Shown here piece by piece: positions 1,530 to 12,446 of a stretch of DNA of 20,186 nt. The translations under genes were made by a program, and so were the position numbers. The notes beneath the pieces are model-generated. The model saw only the letters and a program-made list of their open reading frames with translations. It did no database searches and was not told the DNA's origin. How positions within the stretch are numbered: the stretch's first letter is position 1; every line of letters starts with the position of its first letter. Source of the DNA: a virus; IMG/VR virus record IMGVR_UViG_3300032783_000012, positions 1 to 20,186 of that record; one strand, written 5' to 3'.

Positions 1530-2528
1530 TTAATGTGCCGTGATCGCTGCCGTGTCCGGGAGATCGACGGCGTTAAGATTTATTAACCCTACCCCCGCGG
1601 GGGCTTGACCGACAAAAACATATTGCCGATATCCCATGTGATACTTTATGAATGAAAACCCCTCCTCGATATCCGTGATAGCGTAATGTTCAGAGGTAAG
1701 GTCTTTTACGAACCCTCCAGGGAGTCCCATGAACATTCCGATGCACGTCCCAAAAATACAGACCTTTCCCTCGAGGCCCTTCCCAAGATCGTATCTCTCG
1801 ATCGAAACGGAGCTCCCGAGGAGCGCCGGCACATCGAGAAGAGGTTTATATTTTGCTTTTTCAAGAGAAGGTTCAAGATCCGAAAGATAAGCACATTTTC
1901 CACCGGCACTCACATAGATTCCATTCTCTCCGCGAGGCCCATTCACGCCTTTAATCATCGTGATCGGCCCGCCAAGATAGATGAAATCCCGCTTGATATC
2001 CATTTCAAAAGGATTTGCCGCGACAGATCTGTAAATAATATCTCCCTGGGCAACATAAAGGCGCGGAGGATGATATTCAATCAGCTCTCCGCCAACCATT
2101 CTTTGCCGATCGGTCCTGACATTGGCGGGGAAAGCGTGAGCGACACCATCTTGAATATATCCGTTTTTAATGAGGTTTGAGAAAAAGACCCTTTCTCCAA
2201 GTTGAAAGAAATTCATATGAGAGGGGCCTACGTTCGGGAAAATAAGTGTTGTGGTCCAATCAGTATTTAATTGGACGAGATCACCATTAAGAACAAGAAA
2301 GCAGAGCTTATCTTCGTTAGACCAACCGCTATGAGCATTCCCGGAAACGAGCTGAAGAAGAACGCCTTTTCTTCTTCGGATCATCATCTCGCTATCAATA
2401 TCGACATTTTCAGCGACCCTGACAAAACCGGGCTCGAGACGAAGATCATCCGTAGCGAGATTATCGATTCCCCTAAACTTACTCATTTCATAAAGCGGCT
2501 TCAGAGTGTTTTGAATGAGTCGAGGCAT
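1530..2528 (-). CDS. P22 gp10-like tail/DNA-stabilisation protein (probable)
   Basis: 332 residues. The ATG overlaps the stop of the upstream gene by one base (TGATG), which implies translational coupling. The N-terminus reads F-R-G-I-D-N-L (residues 18-24) and then A-E-N-V-D-I-D (39-45) followed by R-R-R-K-G (51-55). This opening resembles the P22 gp10 / packaged-DNA stabilisation family and related tail-hub proteins that plug the head-tail channel. Recurring strand pairs with aromatic residues fit a beta-propeller-like body. P22 gp10 is about 470 residues, so this would be a shortened relative or a distinct family with a shared N-terminus. Its place after the adaptor and among tail genes agrees with a neck or tail-tube role. 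The family assignment is from motif memory only. Confidence 0.7.
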   Translation of the reverse strand: MPRLIQNTLKPLYEMSKFRGIDNLATDDLRLEPGFVRVAENVDIDSEMMIRRRKGVLLQLVSGNAHSGWSNEDKLCFLVLNGDLVQLNTDWTTTLIFPNVGPSHMNFFQLGERVFFSNLIKNGYIQDGVAHAFPANVRTDRQRMVGGELIEYHPPRLYVAQGDIIYRSVAANPFEMDIKRDFIYLGGPITMIKGVNGPRGENGIYVSAGGKCAYLSDLEPSLEKAKYKPLLDVPALLGSSVSIERYDLGKGLEGKVCIFGTCIGMFMGLPGGFVKDLTSEHYAITDIEEGFSFIKYHMGYRQYVFVGQAPAGVGLINLNAVDLPDTAAITAH

Positions 2529-6055: not shown

Positions 6056-6985
6056 TTAAAGCCTTCCAGGGTTCGGTATAAAAACCGTGGGCCCCTGCCT
6101 GAGACGCTGAATTTCGTTATAAGCCTTGTCTTTTGCTTTCTGAAAATTTTTACCATGCTCTTCCGATTTATTGACATCGAGACATTGAGAATCTTGCTTT
6201 TGATAGGCTTCTCTCAGAATTCCCTCTATCAAATAAGGATGATAATCAAACCTGATTTCGGGAGACTGCGTATCCCAATTAGCGAGGGTAAGCTGATTTA
6301 AAGGGAGCCTCGAAACGCTGATATTGAGGTTATCGACGATCTTGCTGATCGCGGCGGCGGCCGCGCTTTCGTCAGCGATCGTTTCAATGACCGTCACGAA
6401 GTTTAATTGGGAAGTTACGATCGTAAAGGTTGAAGGAGCAGCCGTTGTTCCATTGAGAACCGTACCCGACACGACGATTTTATCTCCAGGGACTAAAACG
6501 GTGAAATTCGTTCCCGTCTGAGTAATCGAATTTGAAGCTGCCGCAAAGGTGAAGGCTCCCGAGAAATAGCCGCGTTCAGGTTTCGGAAATCTCGCCACCT
6601 TCATATATCCGGACGAATAATCTGGAAGAATGAATCGCTGATCCCCGCCCTGTTTTCGCCACATATAAACGTGTCGATCGAGCCAGATTTCATCCTTCAC
6701 ATCGATATGAGCCCATCCTGAATCGAGCCATCCATTGTGAATCTGAATAATCCTATTATCCATTGGATAGGTCAGGACGTTGGCCAGAAGAGGGATCTGA
6801 CAAATGGCGGTTGTTTTATCGTCCCGAAGGCATCCGGTCTCTCGACACCATTCATTAAGAACTGTGTTCGCGCATCCAATGAGCTCGCTATCGGACCAAA
6901 GGAGCTCTTGAACCTTATCGTCCAGTTTGTCCCGGGCCCCCTGGACGCCGGCATCGTTACCCCAAATAAGCTCTCTCGCTGTCAT
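6056..6985 (-). CDS. Head-tail adaptor (connector) protein with inserted beta domain
   Basis: 309 residues. ATG at 6985 overlaps the stop of the acyltransferase gene by four bases (ATGA). The two ends look like one helical adaptor fold. The N-terminal helices (about 18-60) are followed by N-R-I-I-Q-I and W-L-D strands. The C-terminal part (about 228-295) contains L-T-L-A-N-W, a P-E-I strand, Y-H-P-Y-L-I-E-G-I-L-R-E-A-Y-Q-K and a long charged helix. This pattern is typical of the protein that binds below the portal ring in podovirus-like necks. Between them, residues about 140-218 are Thr/Ser/Val-rich and strand-like, different in composition, and read as an inserted Ig-like domain. Its place between coat and tail genes agrees with an adaptor role. 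It could alternatively be a tail-tube (gatekeeper) protein. Confidence 0.7.
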   Translation of the reverse strand: MTARELIWGNDAGVQGARDKLDDKVQELLWSDSELIGCANTVLNEWCRETGCLRDDKTTAICQIPLLANVLTYPMDNRIIQIHNGWLDSGWAHIDVKDEIWLDRHVYMWRKQGGDQRFILPDYSSGYMKVARFPKPERGYFSGAFTFAAASNSITQTGTNFTVLVPGDKIVVSGTVLNGTTAAPSTFTIVTSQLNFVTVIETIADESAAAAAISKIVDNLNISVSRLPLNQLTLANWDTQSPEIRFDYHPYLIEGILREAYQKQDSQCLDVNKSEEHGKNFQKAKDKAYNEIQRLRQGPTVFIPNPGRL

Positions 6986-7407
6986 GTTCTTTCTCCAATT
7001 TTCTTAGCGGGATTTCCCGCCCAAATTTCGTAAGGGCCAGGATTTTCGGTAAGAACCGAAGCGCAGCCGACAACAACTCCATCCGGAATTTCAGTAACCT
7101 GATAGAGAATCGTACAGCCGTGAAGCCATACATCATTTCCAATGCGCTTATTTTGCCATTTGACACCTTTCTCCTCCTGGACAAGCAAAAGGGGCTTTCG
7201 CCCCTCATGGTAATGATCGTGGGTGAGGATTGTCGTTCCCTCACCGATCATTGACCAATCCCCGATCGTGACGGATCCCGTCAGATCGATTCGGCATTTT
7301 GGAGAAATAAAAAGCTGCCCATCTCCTATAACAAGCTCGCCCGTATGAACTTCCGGGTGAGGATAATATAAAACGGACATCATGTTCAAAACGTCTTCAG
7401 TCTTCAT
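6982..7407 (-). CDS. Hexapeptide-repeat (left-handed beta-helix) acyltransferase
   Basis: 141 residues from ATG at 7407, which overlaps the glycosyltransferase stop by 11 bases. A longer form from ATG at 7449 is possible but has a weaker ribosome site and a longer overlap. Imperfect hexapeptide turns run through most of the protein: G-S-V-T-I-G, G-E-G-T-T-I, N-K-R-I-G-N-D-V-W-L, and I-P-D-G-V-V-V-G-C-A-S-V-L. The ending G-N-P-A-K-K-I-G is the usual C-terminus of WcaF/maltose-acetyltransferase-type enzymes, and T-H-D-H-Y-H in the middle supplies the expected catalytic histidine region. These enzymes usually transfer an acetyl group from acetyl-CoA to a sugar hydroxyl. Coupling to a glycosyltransferase upstream and the adaptor downstream suggests late modification of a sugar on the virion or cell surface. 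Confidence 0.85.
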   Translation of the reverse strand: MKTEDVLNMMSVLYYPHPEVHTGELVIGDGQLFISPKCRIDLTGSVTIGDWSMIGEGTTILTHDHYHEGRKPLLLVQEEKGVKWQNKRIGNDVWLHGCTILYQVTEIPDGVVVGCASVLTENPGPYEIWAGNPAKKIGERT

Positions 7408-8089
7408 CCCAATGCCCCGCATAGCAAATGTCAGCGAACCAATTTCCATCTTTGTCTCTTCGCGGTCGCTGAGAAACGTGTTCGATGTGACCGATCACGT
7501 TGTCGAGATCGATATAGACCTTGAAGCCGGACTGTTGAGCGTACCAGCAAAAGAAAAGATCGGAGCTGGAATATCTGAGGTCGAGCTGACCCTGACGAAA
7601 CCAGGGAGGATCCATCGCCTCAAAAACATTTCTTCGGATCAGCATCCCTGCATTGCCTACCGTCCCGGTCCATTCCATAATACCGGACTTCCCGCGGAGA
7701 ACTTCCCAACGATCCGGATGAGGAACGAAGCCCCCTTCAACTCCGCAGTTTAAAACGGGAGCGTGATCGGATTTTCTTAAACAAAGAGGGACGATGATAT
7801 CAACATTGCGCTCATACAATTTGTAAAAAAGATTTTTCGGGAAATCGTGATCGTCTCCCAAAATCCATAGCCAGCGCATTTCCGGATTTTCCATCATCTT
7901 CGTTACGAGCTCATTAAAGTTAAATCCGATATCGCAGCCCATGGCGAAAAGTTTTTGGGAGTTTGGAGGAAGGAGAACTTCATTTAGGGATGAATCGAAT
8001 TCTCGATATCTCCCTAAAAAAGAAGTGGGGATCCCTACGATGCCGGCAGGGATCCCCTTCAATTTTTGTTTAATCGTAGAATTTTTCAT
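7397..8089 (-). CDS. GT-A fold glycosyltransferase (family 2-like)
   Basis: 230 residues. ATG at 8089 has AAAGGG upstream and lies 7 bases after the previous stop. The N-terminus has a G-I-V-G-I-P-T-S strand (about 16-23). W-L-W-I-L-G-D-D-H-D-F-P at 73-84 provides the D-x-D-type nucleotide-sugar and metal site (D79/D80/D82). V-G-N-A-G-M-L-I at 144-151 is the acceptor loop seen in this group. S-S-D-L-F-F-C-W-Y-A at 175-184, followed by G-F-K-V-Y-I-D, resembles the acidic catalytic region. H201 in N-V-I-G-H may bind the metal. No membrane segment is seen, so a soluble cytoplasmic enzyme acting on a protein or an activated carrier is likely. Its place within virion genes, before an acyltransferase and after a Ser/Thr-rich repeat protein, fits glycosylation of virion proteins. 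Host surface modification is the alternative. Confidence 0.8.
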   Translation of the reverse strand: MKNSTIKQKLKGIPAGIVGIPTSFLGRYREFDSSLNEVLLPPNSQKLFAMGCDIGFNFNELVTKMMENPEMRWLWILGDDHDFPKNLFYKLYERNVDIIVPLCLRKSDHAPVLNCGVEGGFVPHPDRWEVLRGKSGIMEWTGTVGNAGMLIRRNVFEAMDPPWFRQGQLDLRYSSSDLFFCWYAQQSGFKVYIDLDNVIGHIEHVSQRPRRDKDGNWFADICYAGHWDED

Positions 8090-8096
8090 GGGCCCT

Positions 8097-8807
8097 TTAT
8101 GCCGCTTTCAGGGTCATAACGGACAGAACAATTCCACTCGCATGAGTAAAGGCCTTATTCAGAGACGCCTTTGCGGTGGTCGCCCCCGATTTATAGACCT
8201 TTGCAACCTGAACCCCCGAAGAGATCGCGGCAGCGGAAGGGGGAGAGGTTGGAATGACGCCGATGATAACAGCGCCGGATGAGGTCGCTCCGGAAATGGA
8301 AGATGCTCCGGAAGCAACGGTAAGAGTGATCGCGGCGTATTTCACTTTGCTGGCAATCACCGAATTCGCGCCGAGCTTGGCAGCAACAACCGAACTGGAG
8401 CCCAACCCCGCGGAAGTAACCGCGCCTGTCCCGATAGCGGCAGCGACAACAGCGCCCGAAGCCAAGGCCGCCGATGTAACCGCTCCCGTTCCGAGTTTTG
8501 CGGCAACAACGGAACCGGCAGCGATGTTTGCTGAAGTGATCGAATTCGCGCCGATCGCGCTGGCGGGAGTCACGAAGGAGGCACTCGACAGCGATCCATT
8601 GTTATAATAAAGCACTCCGTTTGTCTTCATAAAGATACAACCCGGAGCATAACCGGTGTCGCCATTCGTGGGGACCGTCGCCCCCTGACAGAGAATAACG
8701 TCGCCGTGAGAATTGCACATTTGGATTTTTACGGAAGGCGTTCCAATCTTCCGAGTAAAACCCACTACGCGAAGCATCCCAACAAGAAAATCCTCGAACT
8801 GAGCCAT
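8097..8807 (-). CDS. Virion-associated protein with 10-residue Ala/Ser/Thr repeats
   Basis: 236 residues from ATG at 8807, preceded by GGAGG at 7 bases. An upstream in-frame start (near 8876) would add a low-complexity Pro/Gln stretch across a hairpin and is rejected. Residues 1-80 form a compact domain with C-x(8)-C pairs (C31, C40) and a G-C-I-F-M-K-T-N-G-V-L-Y-Y strand typical of fibre-type proteins. Residues about 84-156 are about seven 10-residue repeats alternating G-S-V-V-A-A-K-L and G-A-V-T-S-A-x-L. Residues 157-236 are Ser/Thr/Ala-rich with strands. Such repeats occur in phage fibres and head fibres and probably stack as a beta-helix. Adjacent to the glycosyltransferase, it is a plausible but unproven sugar acceptor. 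Confidence 0.75.
   Translation of the reverse strand: MAQFEDFLVGMLRVVGFTRKIGTPSVKIQMCNSHGDVILCQGATVPTNGDTGYAPGCIFMKTNGVLYYNNGSLSSASFVTPASAIGANSITSANIAAGSVVAAKLGTGAVTSAALASGAVVAAAIGTGAVTSAGLGSSSVVAAKLGANSVIASKVKYAAITLTVASGASSISGATSSGAVIIGVIPTSPPSAAAISSGVQVAKVYKSGATTAKASLNKAFTHASGIVLSVMTLKAA
8340..8558 (-). repeat. Seven tandem coding repeats of 10 residues (30 bases)
   Basis: This segment encodes residues 84-156 of the 236-residue protein. Two repeat types alternate, one with V-V-A-A-K-L and the other with G-A-V-T-S-A. The 30-base units are similar enough to see by eye, which suggests relatively recent duplication or conversion. A 117-codon open frame on the plus strand here is a by-product of the biased codons. 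Confidence 0.7.
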
Positions 8808-8879: not shown

Positions 8880-9380
8880 TTATTGTCCGGTCGTACCCGC
8901 AGGAGTGCCCGCATTATAGGGCTGATCCGCATGGAGGGTATCGAGACAAACATCAAAAATCGCCGTTGTGACATTCGCCGTCCCGATAAGAATGGAAGCG
9001 TAGTCGGTCCCCGCCCCGGTGTTATAGGCGAGGATGTTGGCGATCGTCCAGCCGGCCCCGGAAGAGTCGATAATCGTCCCCAGGCCCGAAAGAGCAAGCG
9101 TGGTGCAGAGCGTCTTGCTCCCCGAAGTGTTGACGGTAATCGTGCCCCCGCCCGTATCGACGGTTCGGACGAAAATATACGCCCCGAGAACGATGCAGTA
9201 TTGAGGGATATTGATCAACGTGTAGGTGTTCGTGTTGATCAATCCCGAAGCCGTCAAAGTCCCCGCAGCGATCAGCGCGGGAACGTCGATCTTTCTTGAA
9301 ATGACGCACCTTTTGAAAATTCCTTCGCTCGGATAAGCAGCGATGGAAGTGGAAATCCTGATGTCCACAGTAGATCCCAT
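8880..9380 (-). CDS. Putative capsid-associated (decoration-like) protein
   Basis: 166 residues. ATG at 9380 has a textbook GGAGGTAACTT leader. The sequence is strand-rich with Thr, Gly, Ile and Val. An early segment K-I-D-V-P-A-L (about 31-37) is followed by I-N-I-P-Q-Y-C-I-V-L-G-A-Y-I-F-V (about 56-71). That pattern, residues setting a value and then a strand, recalls small phage proteins encoded next to the major capsid protein. The gene comes immediately after the major capsid gene, 47 bases away, the common position for a head decoration or head-completion protein. No enzyme motif is seen. The decoration role is inferred from position only, and a minor capsid or fibre-anchor protein is equally possible. 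Confidence 0.75.
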   Translation of the reverse strand: MGSTVDIRISTSIAAYPSEGIFKRCVISRKIDVPALIAAGTLTASGLINTNTYTLINIPQYCIVLGAYIFVRTVDTGGGTITVNTSGSKTLCTTLALSGLGTIIDSSGAGWTIANILAYNTGAGTDYASILIGTANVTTAIFDVCLDTLHADQPYNAGTPAGTTGQ

Positions 9381-9427: not shown

Positions 9428-10384
9428 TTATTTGTGAGCGTAAAGAACGCCACAGGCTTCCGTCTTCAGGATCTTGATCCCGTAAACGATCAGTCCGCGG
9501 ACCTTATCCGCGAAGGCTCTCTGAGCTCTCAGGGTTTCCGTTTCCGTCAGTTGAGCCGCGAAAGAAGGACCGAAGGGATGCCCGAAGGGGATACAGGTTG
9601 TATTTGTTCCGCCATCGTTGACGACCGGGAGAAGGTTCGACACATAAAGCCCGAACATATCGATTTCTCCGATTCGGCCGTTTCTCAGGATGGAAACGCT
9701 GTCTCCGGTGATGGAGGCATTCTTGAGATCGGACTTTTTGATTAGACCGGCCATCCAAACAGGGATAATCATCCACATCCGATCGTTGGGAACATTCTGC
9801 TCGGCAAGGACGTTCTCGCAATCGACGATATAATCGAGGACGTTTCCCTTGTCGAGAGTGACGGTTGATCCATAGGCGCCGATGTTGTAGCTGGCGCTTT
9901 TGTATCCCGCCGTCTGCCCGGTATTATAGGCGCTGACCTGTCCCATGACTCCGGAAGTGGTCCCGCCATAACCGAACCATTGATTGAAAACATCTGTCTC
10001 GATCGTGATCTTCTGCTGCCGGCCGGCTTCGTCCGTCCACCGATCCAAGAGGTTAAGGTCACTCTGGACATCCATTACGTCGTCCAGGAGAACAGACCAG
10101 TAATACCCCTGATCGATCGACAGGGAGGTCGGAGTGGAAACCGGGCGTTCGTCGACGAGATCCTGACCAACCACGTATTTTCTCATGGTGATCGGAGCGA
10201 CGGTTCGGATGATCACGGTATCACCGTATTTCTTGATCTCACCTTCATAATCGGTGTTGCAGATATCCGTCATGCAGGTGGCATCGTAGAACTTGATCAA
10301 AATCTTCCCGGACCAAATTTCCGGGATAAAACGAGATCCGGCCCTGGTATAGTCCGGTTGTTCTGTTACGCGAGGGTAAGCCAT
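9428..10384 (-). CDS. Major capsid protein (HK97 fold, P22-coat/N4-gp56-like)
   Basis: 318 residues. ATG at 10384 follows an ideal AAGGAGG site, as expected for the most abundant virion protein. The N-terminal R-F-I-P-E-I-W-S (about 18-25) and K-K-Y-G-D-T-V-I-I-R (about 51-60) match the opening of P22-coat/N4-gp56-type capsid proteins. The long L-L-D-D-V-M-D-V-Q-S-D-L helix region (about 97-108) resembles the spine helix. A central segment with V-P-N-D-R-M-W-M-I-I-P-V-W-M (about 198-211) and the closing strands fit the A-domain and P-domain order. It follows a scaffold gene directly, which is the standard arrangement. I am confident that it is the coat protein. The exact subfamily is less certain. 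Confidence 0.85.
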   Translation of the reverse strand: MAYPRVTEQPDYTRAGSRFIPEIWSGKILIKFYDATCMTDICNTDYEGEIKKYGDTVIIRTVAPITMRKYVVGQDLVDERPVSTPTSLSIDQGYYWSVLLDDVMDVQSDLNLLDRWTDEAGRQQKITIETDVFNQWFGYGGTTSGVMGQVSAYNTGQTAGYKSASYNIGAYGSTVTLDKGNVLDYIVDCENVLAEQNVPNDRMWMIIPVWMAGLIKKSDLKNASITGDSVSILRNGRIGEIDMFGLYVSNLLPVVNDGGTNTTCIPFGHPFGPSFAAQLTETETLRAQRAFADKVRGLIVYGIKILKTEACGVLYAHK

Positions 10385-11792: not shown

Positions 11793-12085
11793 GATTCTTT
11801 GATCGGTTCTGGATTTTTCCTTGCTTCGGCTATTTTCGCCCTGGACGCCATCTCTTCCCTTGCATTTTCGATCCAGGAGCATAAATTAAAAAGAAAAACC
11901 GAGACCCCCTGATATCGTCTCACTTCTTTTTCTTCAAGCTGCACCCCGAAGGCGGTGTAATTCTCATAATGGATCAGTTGTTCGGCGATCCATTTCTTCA
12001 GGGTGATCCAATTCGGATCGTTGTTCGAGTTCAGGTTCGCCACACTCCTCAACACTTCGTCCGACATTACGAAAAAGTTCTCCAT
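11789..12085 (-). CDS. Hypothetical protein, 98 residues
   Basis: ATG at 12085 has a strong GAGGAGG site, although this start lies inside the end of the upstream YkgJ-like gene (122-base overlap in another frame). The ribosome site and the ATGA junction with the next gene both argue that this frame is real. The protein is mostly helical: residues about 6-45 include W-I-T-L-K-K-W-I-A-E-Q-L, followed by F-G-V-Q-L-E-E-K-E and a C-terminal charged helix ending E-A-R-K-N-P-E-P. No domain is recognised, with no Cys cluster and no membrane segment. It could be a small head-assembly or regulatory protein. Confidence 0.65.
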   Translation of the reverse strand: MENFFVMSDEVLRSVANLNSNNDPNWITLKKWIAEQLIHYENYTAFGVQLEEKEVRRYQGVSVFLFNLCSWIENAREEMASRAKIAEARKNPEPIKES

Positions 12086-12446
12086 CTTTTTTCTCCTCCT
12101 CTATTTTTTCTGTAGCCCAAAGGCATTTTAAGCCATCTCTCTTTTCCTCGAGACGGCCGTCGAACATCACGCAGACCAGGGGCCTTTCGTTGTAAATATC
12201 GCAGGTAAAAGAGAGATCTCCGTTTCCCTCTTCTTTTGCCTCGATCTTCTTCACCAGGTGAGGACATTGATAGGGAATTTTCAATCGCCAGCTATTCGAA
12301 TGCTCTTTGACGATCGATATTTTCCTTGCCTGGAGCCAGCCTCTCCAAAGGAGCTCATTGGATTTAGGCTCTGGCTTGTGCAATTCAAGAACGAAAAATT
12401 TACAGCACTCCCCGCATCGCTGGCATAATTCGGATTTCGTCGGCAT
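11964..12446 (-). CDS. YkgJ-family cysteine-cluster protein
   Basis: 160 residues. ATG at 12446 shares one base with the upstream stop. It begins C-Q-R-C-G-E-C-C (residues 8-15), followed by C-P-H-L (61-64), T-C-D-I-Y-N-E-R-P-L-V-C (81-92) and C108. This order is the signature of the YkgJ / CxxCxxCC family, thought to bind zinc or an iron-sulphur cluster. Known members are small proteins of unclear biochemical role. Finding one between the portal-side gene and the scaffold gene is unusual. The last 40 codons are charged and overlap the next gene's frame, so the functional domain probably ends near residue 115. It might modify or cofactor-load a virion protein, but this is speculation. Confidence 0.8.
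   Translation of the reverse strand: MPTKSELCQRCGECCKFFVLELHKPEPKSNELLWRGWLQARKISIVKEHSNSWRLKIPYQCPHLVKKIEAKEEGNGDLSFTCDIYNERPLVCVMFDGRLEEKRDGLKCLWATEKIEEEKKDGELFRNVGRSVEECGEPELEQRSELDHPEEMDRRTTDPL

Follow-up and report, generated by a model that had tools for sequence, protein, structure and literature searches.

The 20,186 nucleotides analysed here (the window) make up a complete linear IMG/VR contig (IMGVR_UViG_3300032783_000012), which belongs to an uncultured bacterial virus; the genes on its minus strand form a tailed-phage structural operon. The operon leads from large terminase, portal and scaffold genes through the major capsid protein (9428..10384; PHROG 267, E 2e-51, and Pfam Phage_capsid_4), a probably head-associated 166-aa protein (8880..9380) whose homologues (30-48% identity) likewise follow the capsid gene in most capsid relatives, and a repeat-rich head-fibre-like protein of 236 aa (8097..8807; matches to PHROG tail fibre and virion structural families) to a predicted glycosyltransferase (GT; 7397..8089, 230 aa), a predicted hexapeptide-repeat acyltransferase (6982..7407, 141 aa) and a head-tail adaptor (6056..6985), all on the minus strand. 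Further small and fibre-like proteins follow downstream of the adaptor, and then the head closure protein Hc3 (1530..2528, minus strand; PHROG 8040, E 4e-20). The capsid, adaptor and Hc3 assignments are profile matches, and the terminase, portal and scaffold names were read from place and sequence. The fibre-like gene is taken from ATG 8807, its longest ORF beginning at TTG 8876. Between the portal and scaffold genes lies a Cys-rich ORF (11964-12446), by eye resembling metal-chelating YkgJ-type proteins and conserved in the capsid relative L006. The capsid gene of the window is unsplit; in three relatives it is split by group I introns (Rfam RF00028; L006:8743-9469, L017:2051-2969 and L031:5891-6126) inserted after about codon 34-49, L006 also having, in the opposite orientation, an HNH-like ORF, and the capsid gene of L033 is similarly split with no Rfam match.

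The GT gives a weak signal by sequence (PHROG 1574, E 5e-6; PHROG 12406, "glycosyltransferase", E 6e-3; just a sub-threshold Anp1 match in Pfam), and in a sequence-based search the profile of its family hits no solved structure, such structures being reached by fold comparison alone. Its AlphaFold2 model (pLDDT 88.3, pTM 0.89) aligns across residues 2-226 with many GT-A enzymes of known structure, at Z 13-19. The closest is A197 of STIV (PDB 2c0n; Z 18.7, rmsd 2.5, 176 residues), followed by human LH3, Mimivirus R699, the collagen galactosyltransferase ColGalT1 and yeast Mnn9; the best matches are protein and polysaccharide GTs, with these last four representing the protein-modifying kind. Within an alignment of 13 sequences, the stretch W75-H81 (WILGDDH), which includes a DxD-like D79/D80, is invariant, as are D177 and H201. 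D177 opens helix 176-186 of the model and, judged by topology, may be the counterpart of Asp151 in A197 and thereby a putative catalytic base, and H201 is a putative metal-binding residue; together D79, D80, H81, D177 and H201 are candidate catalytic residues. The 230-aa protein is therefore predicted, strongly by fold and weakly by sequence, to be a GT-A-type glycosyltransferase.

For the 141-aa protein, profile matches point to a soluble hexapeptide-repeat acyltransferase. The match to Pfam Hexapep (E 3.6e-6, 26.9 bits against a cut-off of 27) is borderline when taken alone, and the many NCBIfam sugar and xenobiotic acetyltransferase models that the protein matches all score under their own cut-offs; profile matches in the PDB, to CatB8, maltose O-acetyltransferase and VatA/Vat enzymes, have E values down to 1e-12. 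With the hexapeptide sugar O-acetyltransferases (maltose O-acetyltransferase, WbbJ, NeuD) and the CatB/Vat enzymes it shares hexapeptide repeats, a His-rich loop and a C-terminal region, but it is shorter, stays below every NCBIfam cut-off and lies in a phage structural context. The motif THDHxHxGR is conserved in the four closest acyltransferase sequences, and its region aligns with the His loop of maltose acetyltransferase; this loop is likely the active-site region and the candidate location of a catalytic His. As to the left-handed beta-helix of this enzyme class, the structural model of the acyltransferase is weak (pLDDT only 57), with short strands in a regular pattern, and too poor for a fold search. 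Neither enzyme has a predicted membrane segment, the top 19-residue hydropathy being 0.73 for the GT and 1.18 for the acyltransferase.

The acyltransferase has several in-frame starts, among them ATG 7449, with a 53-base overlap with the GT gene, and ATG 7407, with an 11-base overlap. ATG 7407 is preferred because the homologue in contig L002 starts at the same alignment column, which makes the upstream ATG 7449 the less likely start. Given ATG 7407, the initial annotation was exact in reporting overlaps of 11 bases between GT and acyltransferase and of 4 bases between acyltransferase and adaptor, the latter formed by the stop at 6982 and the adaptor ATG at 6985 (ATGA); its enzyme names are likewise upheld by the GT fold and by the hexapeptide profile and PDB matches. 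The reading frames are real, since homologues of both enzymes (61-65% identity) adjoin in the otherwise divergent phage L002. Short overlaps are by themselves not exceptional, 1-base overlaps occurring at three further junctions of the same operon.

The adaptor matches PHROG 399, and six of its relatives exceed the Pfam SU10_adaptor cut-off; a tblastn search with it against named phages found nothing. It has a good ribosome-binding site of its own (GGAG, 7 bases ahead of the ATG), and those of the GT and the acyltransferase are weak. The earlier suggestion that the overlaps tie the two enzymes to translation of this neck protein is not supported: besides the adaptor's own GGAG site, comparable overlaps exist at other junctions of the operon, the pair can lie as far as 9 kb from the adaptor or ahead of the capsid genes in relatives, and the nearest capsid relatives keep the adaptor without either enzyme. 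Translational coupling, if relevant, would more likely make the enzymes depend on the upstream fibre gene than on the adaptor.

Comparison with relatives separates the history of the pair from that of its surroundings. In L002, whose adaptor is just 33% identical to that of the window, the pair is followed by an HNH gene and the adaptor lies about 9 kb further on. L006, with a capsid 83% and an adaptor 64% identical to those of the window, is without both enzymes, and so are twelve other capsid relatives (about 65-80% capsid identity), some of whose contigs are too short to prove phage-wide absence. The pair is shared with L002 despite the divergent adaptor and is missing in the close relative L006, and therefore it moves as cargo inside structural modules. 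In agreement with this, L029, L030 and the matching contig L086 from a Desulfobacteraceae bin have the pair upstream of the capsid genes, and the slot that it occupies in the window holds other proteins, of 200-320 aa, in relatives where it is covered and was read. The occurrence of the pair in several distantly related phages marks it as a small travelling kit rather than a one-off, and the GTs that have an acyltransferase partner are dispersed over the GT tree. The GC content of the two genes (about 47%, against 49% overall) does not indicate a very recent import, and a search for repeats flanking the cassette found no convincing ones. The cassette had been called uncommon among structural genes, which holds within this capsid lineage (the other 13 capsid-relative records include 0 with the pair). 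Among phages generally it does not hold, for the GT family recurs there in 40 distinct clusters, and structural genes are prominent in its neighbourhood.

Queried with an alignment, this family was found on 54 viral contigs and on a single contig among 84,980 cellular genomes; the scan relies on short conserved peptides, which more distant cellular relatives could escape, and the family appears almost restricted to phages. A scan with the single window GT sequence returned no viral contig, so that the family is reached by alignment queries only. The viral and cellular contigs together with the window yield 40 GT clusters at 90% identity. Hexapeptide transferases (9) and the podophage fibre protein Gp80 (8) head the Pfam families represented in 115 neighbouring proteins, with capsid and adaptor families coming next; in PHROGs, several families of head, fibre and head-closure proteins are represented as well. 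A GT homologue of 26-29% identity also lies beside the capsid gene in two named phages: in Microcystis phage Mel-JY34 it comes directly after that gene, and in MW202711 it abuts tail tubular protein A.

Several of these loci carry larger sets of sugar-related genes. In the slot of the window's cassette, flanked here by a beta-helix fibre-like gene and the adaptor, L031:9980-15223 holds a seven-gene glycan set consisting of two GT-A types (including a GT2), a GT-B type, a short-chain dehydrogenase, a hexapeptide transferase, a PIG-L deacetylase and an unassigned 271-aa gene. Further tailoring genes at GT loci are methyltransferase domains in L034, an epimerase in L038 and a UDP-glucose dehydrogenase in L062, and such neighbours are the content expected of variable glycan decoration. 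Fused forms also occur. In L033:9968-11359 the GT extends at its C-terminus by about 240 aa that look methyltransferase-like, and L049:9995-12006 holds two GT copies in tandem. Additionally, a GT2 fusion (L003:9364-11076) and a methyltransferase fusion (L034:4640-5890) have N-terminal parts that look similar on inspection, both reminiscent of sulfotransferase P-loop domains; Pfam does not name these parts.

The gene directly upstream of the GT is usually fibre- or spike-like in near relatives, and in the window the fibre-like protein at 8097-8807, which occupies this place, is the most likely candidate for the sugar acceptor. In L029, L033, L034, L035, L048, L049 and L050 the upstream gene ends in one shared domain. 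A role of this C-terminal domain (ending WWEP) as a dedicated GT substrate was rejected, given that a reverse scan finds it mostly without the GT; as a mark of the substrate it is a hint only, and not an obligate substrate. The fibre-like gene of the window has no detectable homology to the fibres of other GT carriers. In L002, the fibre region of the structural operon also includes a signal-peptidase (S26) gene (L002:6548-6967).

Particle glycosylation has been shown for few phages only, mycobacteriophages among them. As summarized in PMC12363180 and PMC11256854, the mycobacteriophage GTs Che8 gp110, Corndog gp38 and that of Myrna decorate capsid or tail proteins (Freeman et al., 2023). Similar to such virion-glycosylation systems, the GT of the window is encoded by the phage together with its structural genes; the Che8 GT genes, in contrast, lie outside the structural operon, near the genome end, in a stretch without an annotated acyltransferase, and the window GT has no BLASTP or profile match to the single sequence of Che8 gp110. 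STIV A197, for its part, is proposed in the passages devoted to it in PMC10551542 and PMC4187194 to glycosylate the virus coat protein. Like the window GT, it is a small virus-encoded GT-A enzyme with a DxD motif, and it is the closest solved fold, but the two are 13% identical and STIV is an unrelated archaeal virus with a different coat. A197 is essential, whereas the window's pair is absent in close relatives, and the same passages mention no partner acyltransferase. Virion glycosylation is already known from mycobacteriophages, and what is new here is this enzyme pair: a limited literature search found no paper describing a GT-acyltransferase pair in phage structural operons, and none treating phage head fibre, glycosyltransferase and acetyltransferase together.

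Taken together, the pair is probably a small, horizontally mobile virion-glycan cassette that decorates the particle with an acylated sugar, a reading that rests on the folds and families of the enzymes, their conserved candidate residues, operon placement, repeated co-occurrence and mobility as a unit. The window and most of its relatives are contig fragments. We infer that the GT-A enzyme would draw on an activated sugar of the host cytoplasm and, expressed late, attach that sugar to a surface protein of the phage, most probably the upstream fibre-like protein and possibly the capsid too. The soluble hexapeptide enzyme would then O-acylate a hydroxyl of that sugar, or would act on the sugar before its transfer, and the acyl group would most likely be acetyl, drawn from acetyl-CoA. 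The phage could benefit, e.g., through a change in adsorption, through particle stability or because the fibre is shielded. Of the two roles suggested for the pair at the outset, decoration of the virion is the one that agrees with the co-occurrence of the two genes in evolution and their place in a structural operon.

The other role, i.e., remodelling of the infected host surface, is unlikely. Here the enzymes would glycosylate and acylate a cytoplasmic polysaccharide precursor, thus blocking later phages or freeing released virions. Non-AT3 enzymes, NeuD among them, are known to acetylate surface-sugar precursors in the cytoplasm (PMC9558356), the best NCBIfam match of the acyltransferase, far under its cut-off, is a lipopolysaccharide O-acetyltransferase model, and the epimerase of L038 and the UDP-glucose dehydrogenase of L062 are nucleotide-sugar genes. 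The phage seroconversion enzymes (Gtr and AT3-type Oac) combine phage-encoded sugar and acetyl transfer. However, the known seroconversion acyltransferases are AT3 proteins, integral to the membrane and acting across it, whereas both enzymes of the window are predicted to be soluble; moreover, they are encoded among late structural genes, and many virion genes were tallied among the neighbours of the family.

It is more doubtful still that the two genes are independent cargo, brought together by a common insertion hot spot between fibre and adaptor and without a common substrate. The slot is indeed variable, both gene orders of the pair are seen, and in 24 of the 40 GT clusters the stretch examined contains no acyltransferase. 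Members of the window's acyltransferase family (56-59% identity) also stand without this GT beside the large terminase genes of lambda-like phages (L003/L004:641-1090 and L028:2090-2512), in L003 with a different GT2 gene downstream. Against this, the two genes lie far closer together than random placement would have them. An acyltransferase is found within 2 kb of the GT in 12 of the 40 clusters, i.e., in 12 of the 16 GT loci that have one, compared with 3.9 expected (P ~3e-5), and the excess persists when three loci linked to the acyltransferase search are left out (9 of 13 against 3.3 expected, P ~9e-4). The ORFs of the pair overlap in the window, L002, L029 and L047, and the two genes appear to have been transferred jointly between phages whose structural genes differ.

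Hypermodification of DNA by phage glycosyltransferases does occur (PMC12619734), but a GT acting on modified bases of the phage DNA, with the acyltransferase extending the hypermodification, is highly improbable in view of the structural gene position, the protein and polysaccharide GTs among the best fold matches, and the occurrence of a thymidylate-synthase-type hydroxymethylase in 0 of 25 GT-family records, often fragments, in a search whose positive control worked.

A broader and more tentative proposal is that many tailed-phage lineages share a dedicated, phage-specific GT family together with swappable acyltransferases, methyltransferases, epimerases and deacetylases, thereby diversifying the glycans of their head fibres as bacteria do their surface polysaccharides; the window would then represent a minimal, two-enzyme form. 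We hold this generalization at less than even confidence. The WILGDDH motif offers a marker for picking culturable phages, and the fused and clustered forms are candidate tailoring chemistries. That dozens of uncultured lineages have a phage-restricted GT next to genes for capsid, fibre and adaptor proteins, often accompanied by a second enzyme of sugar modification, suggests that decorated virions are widespread.
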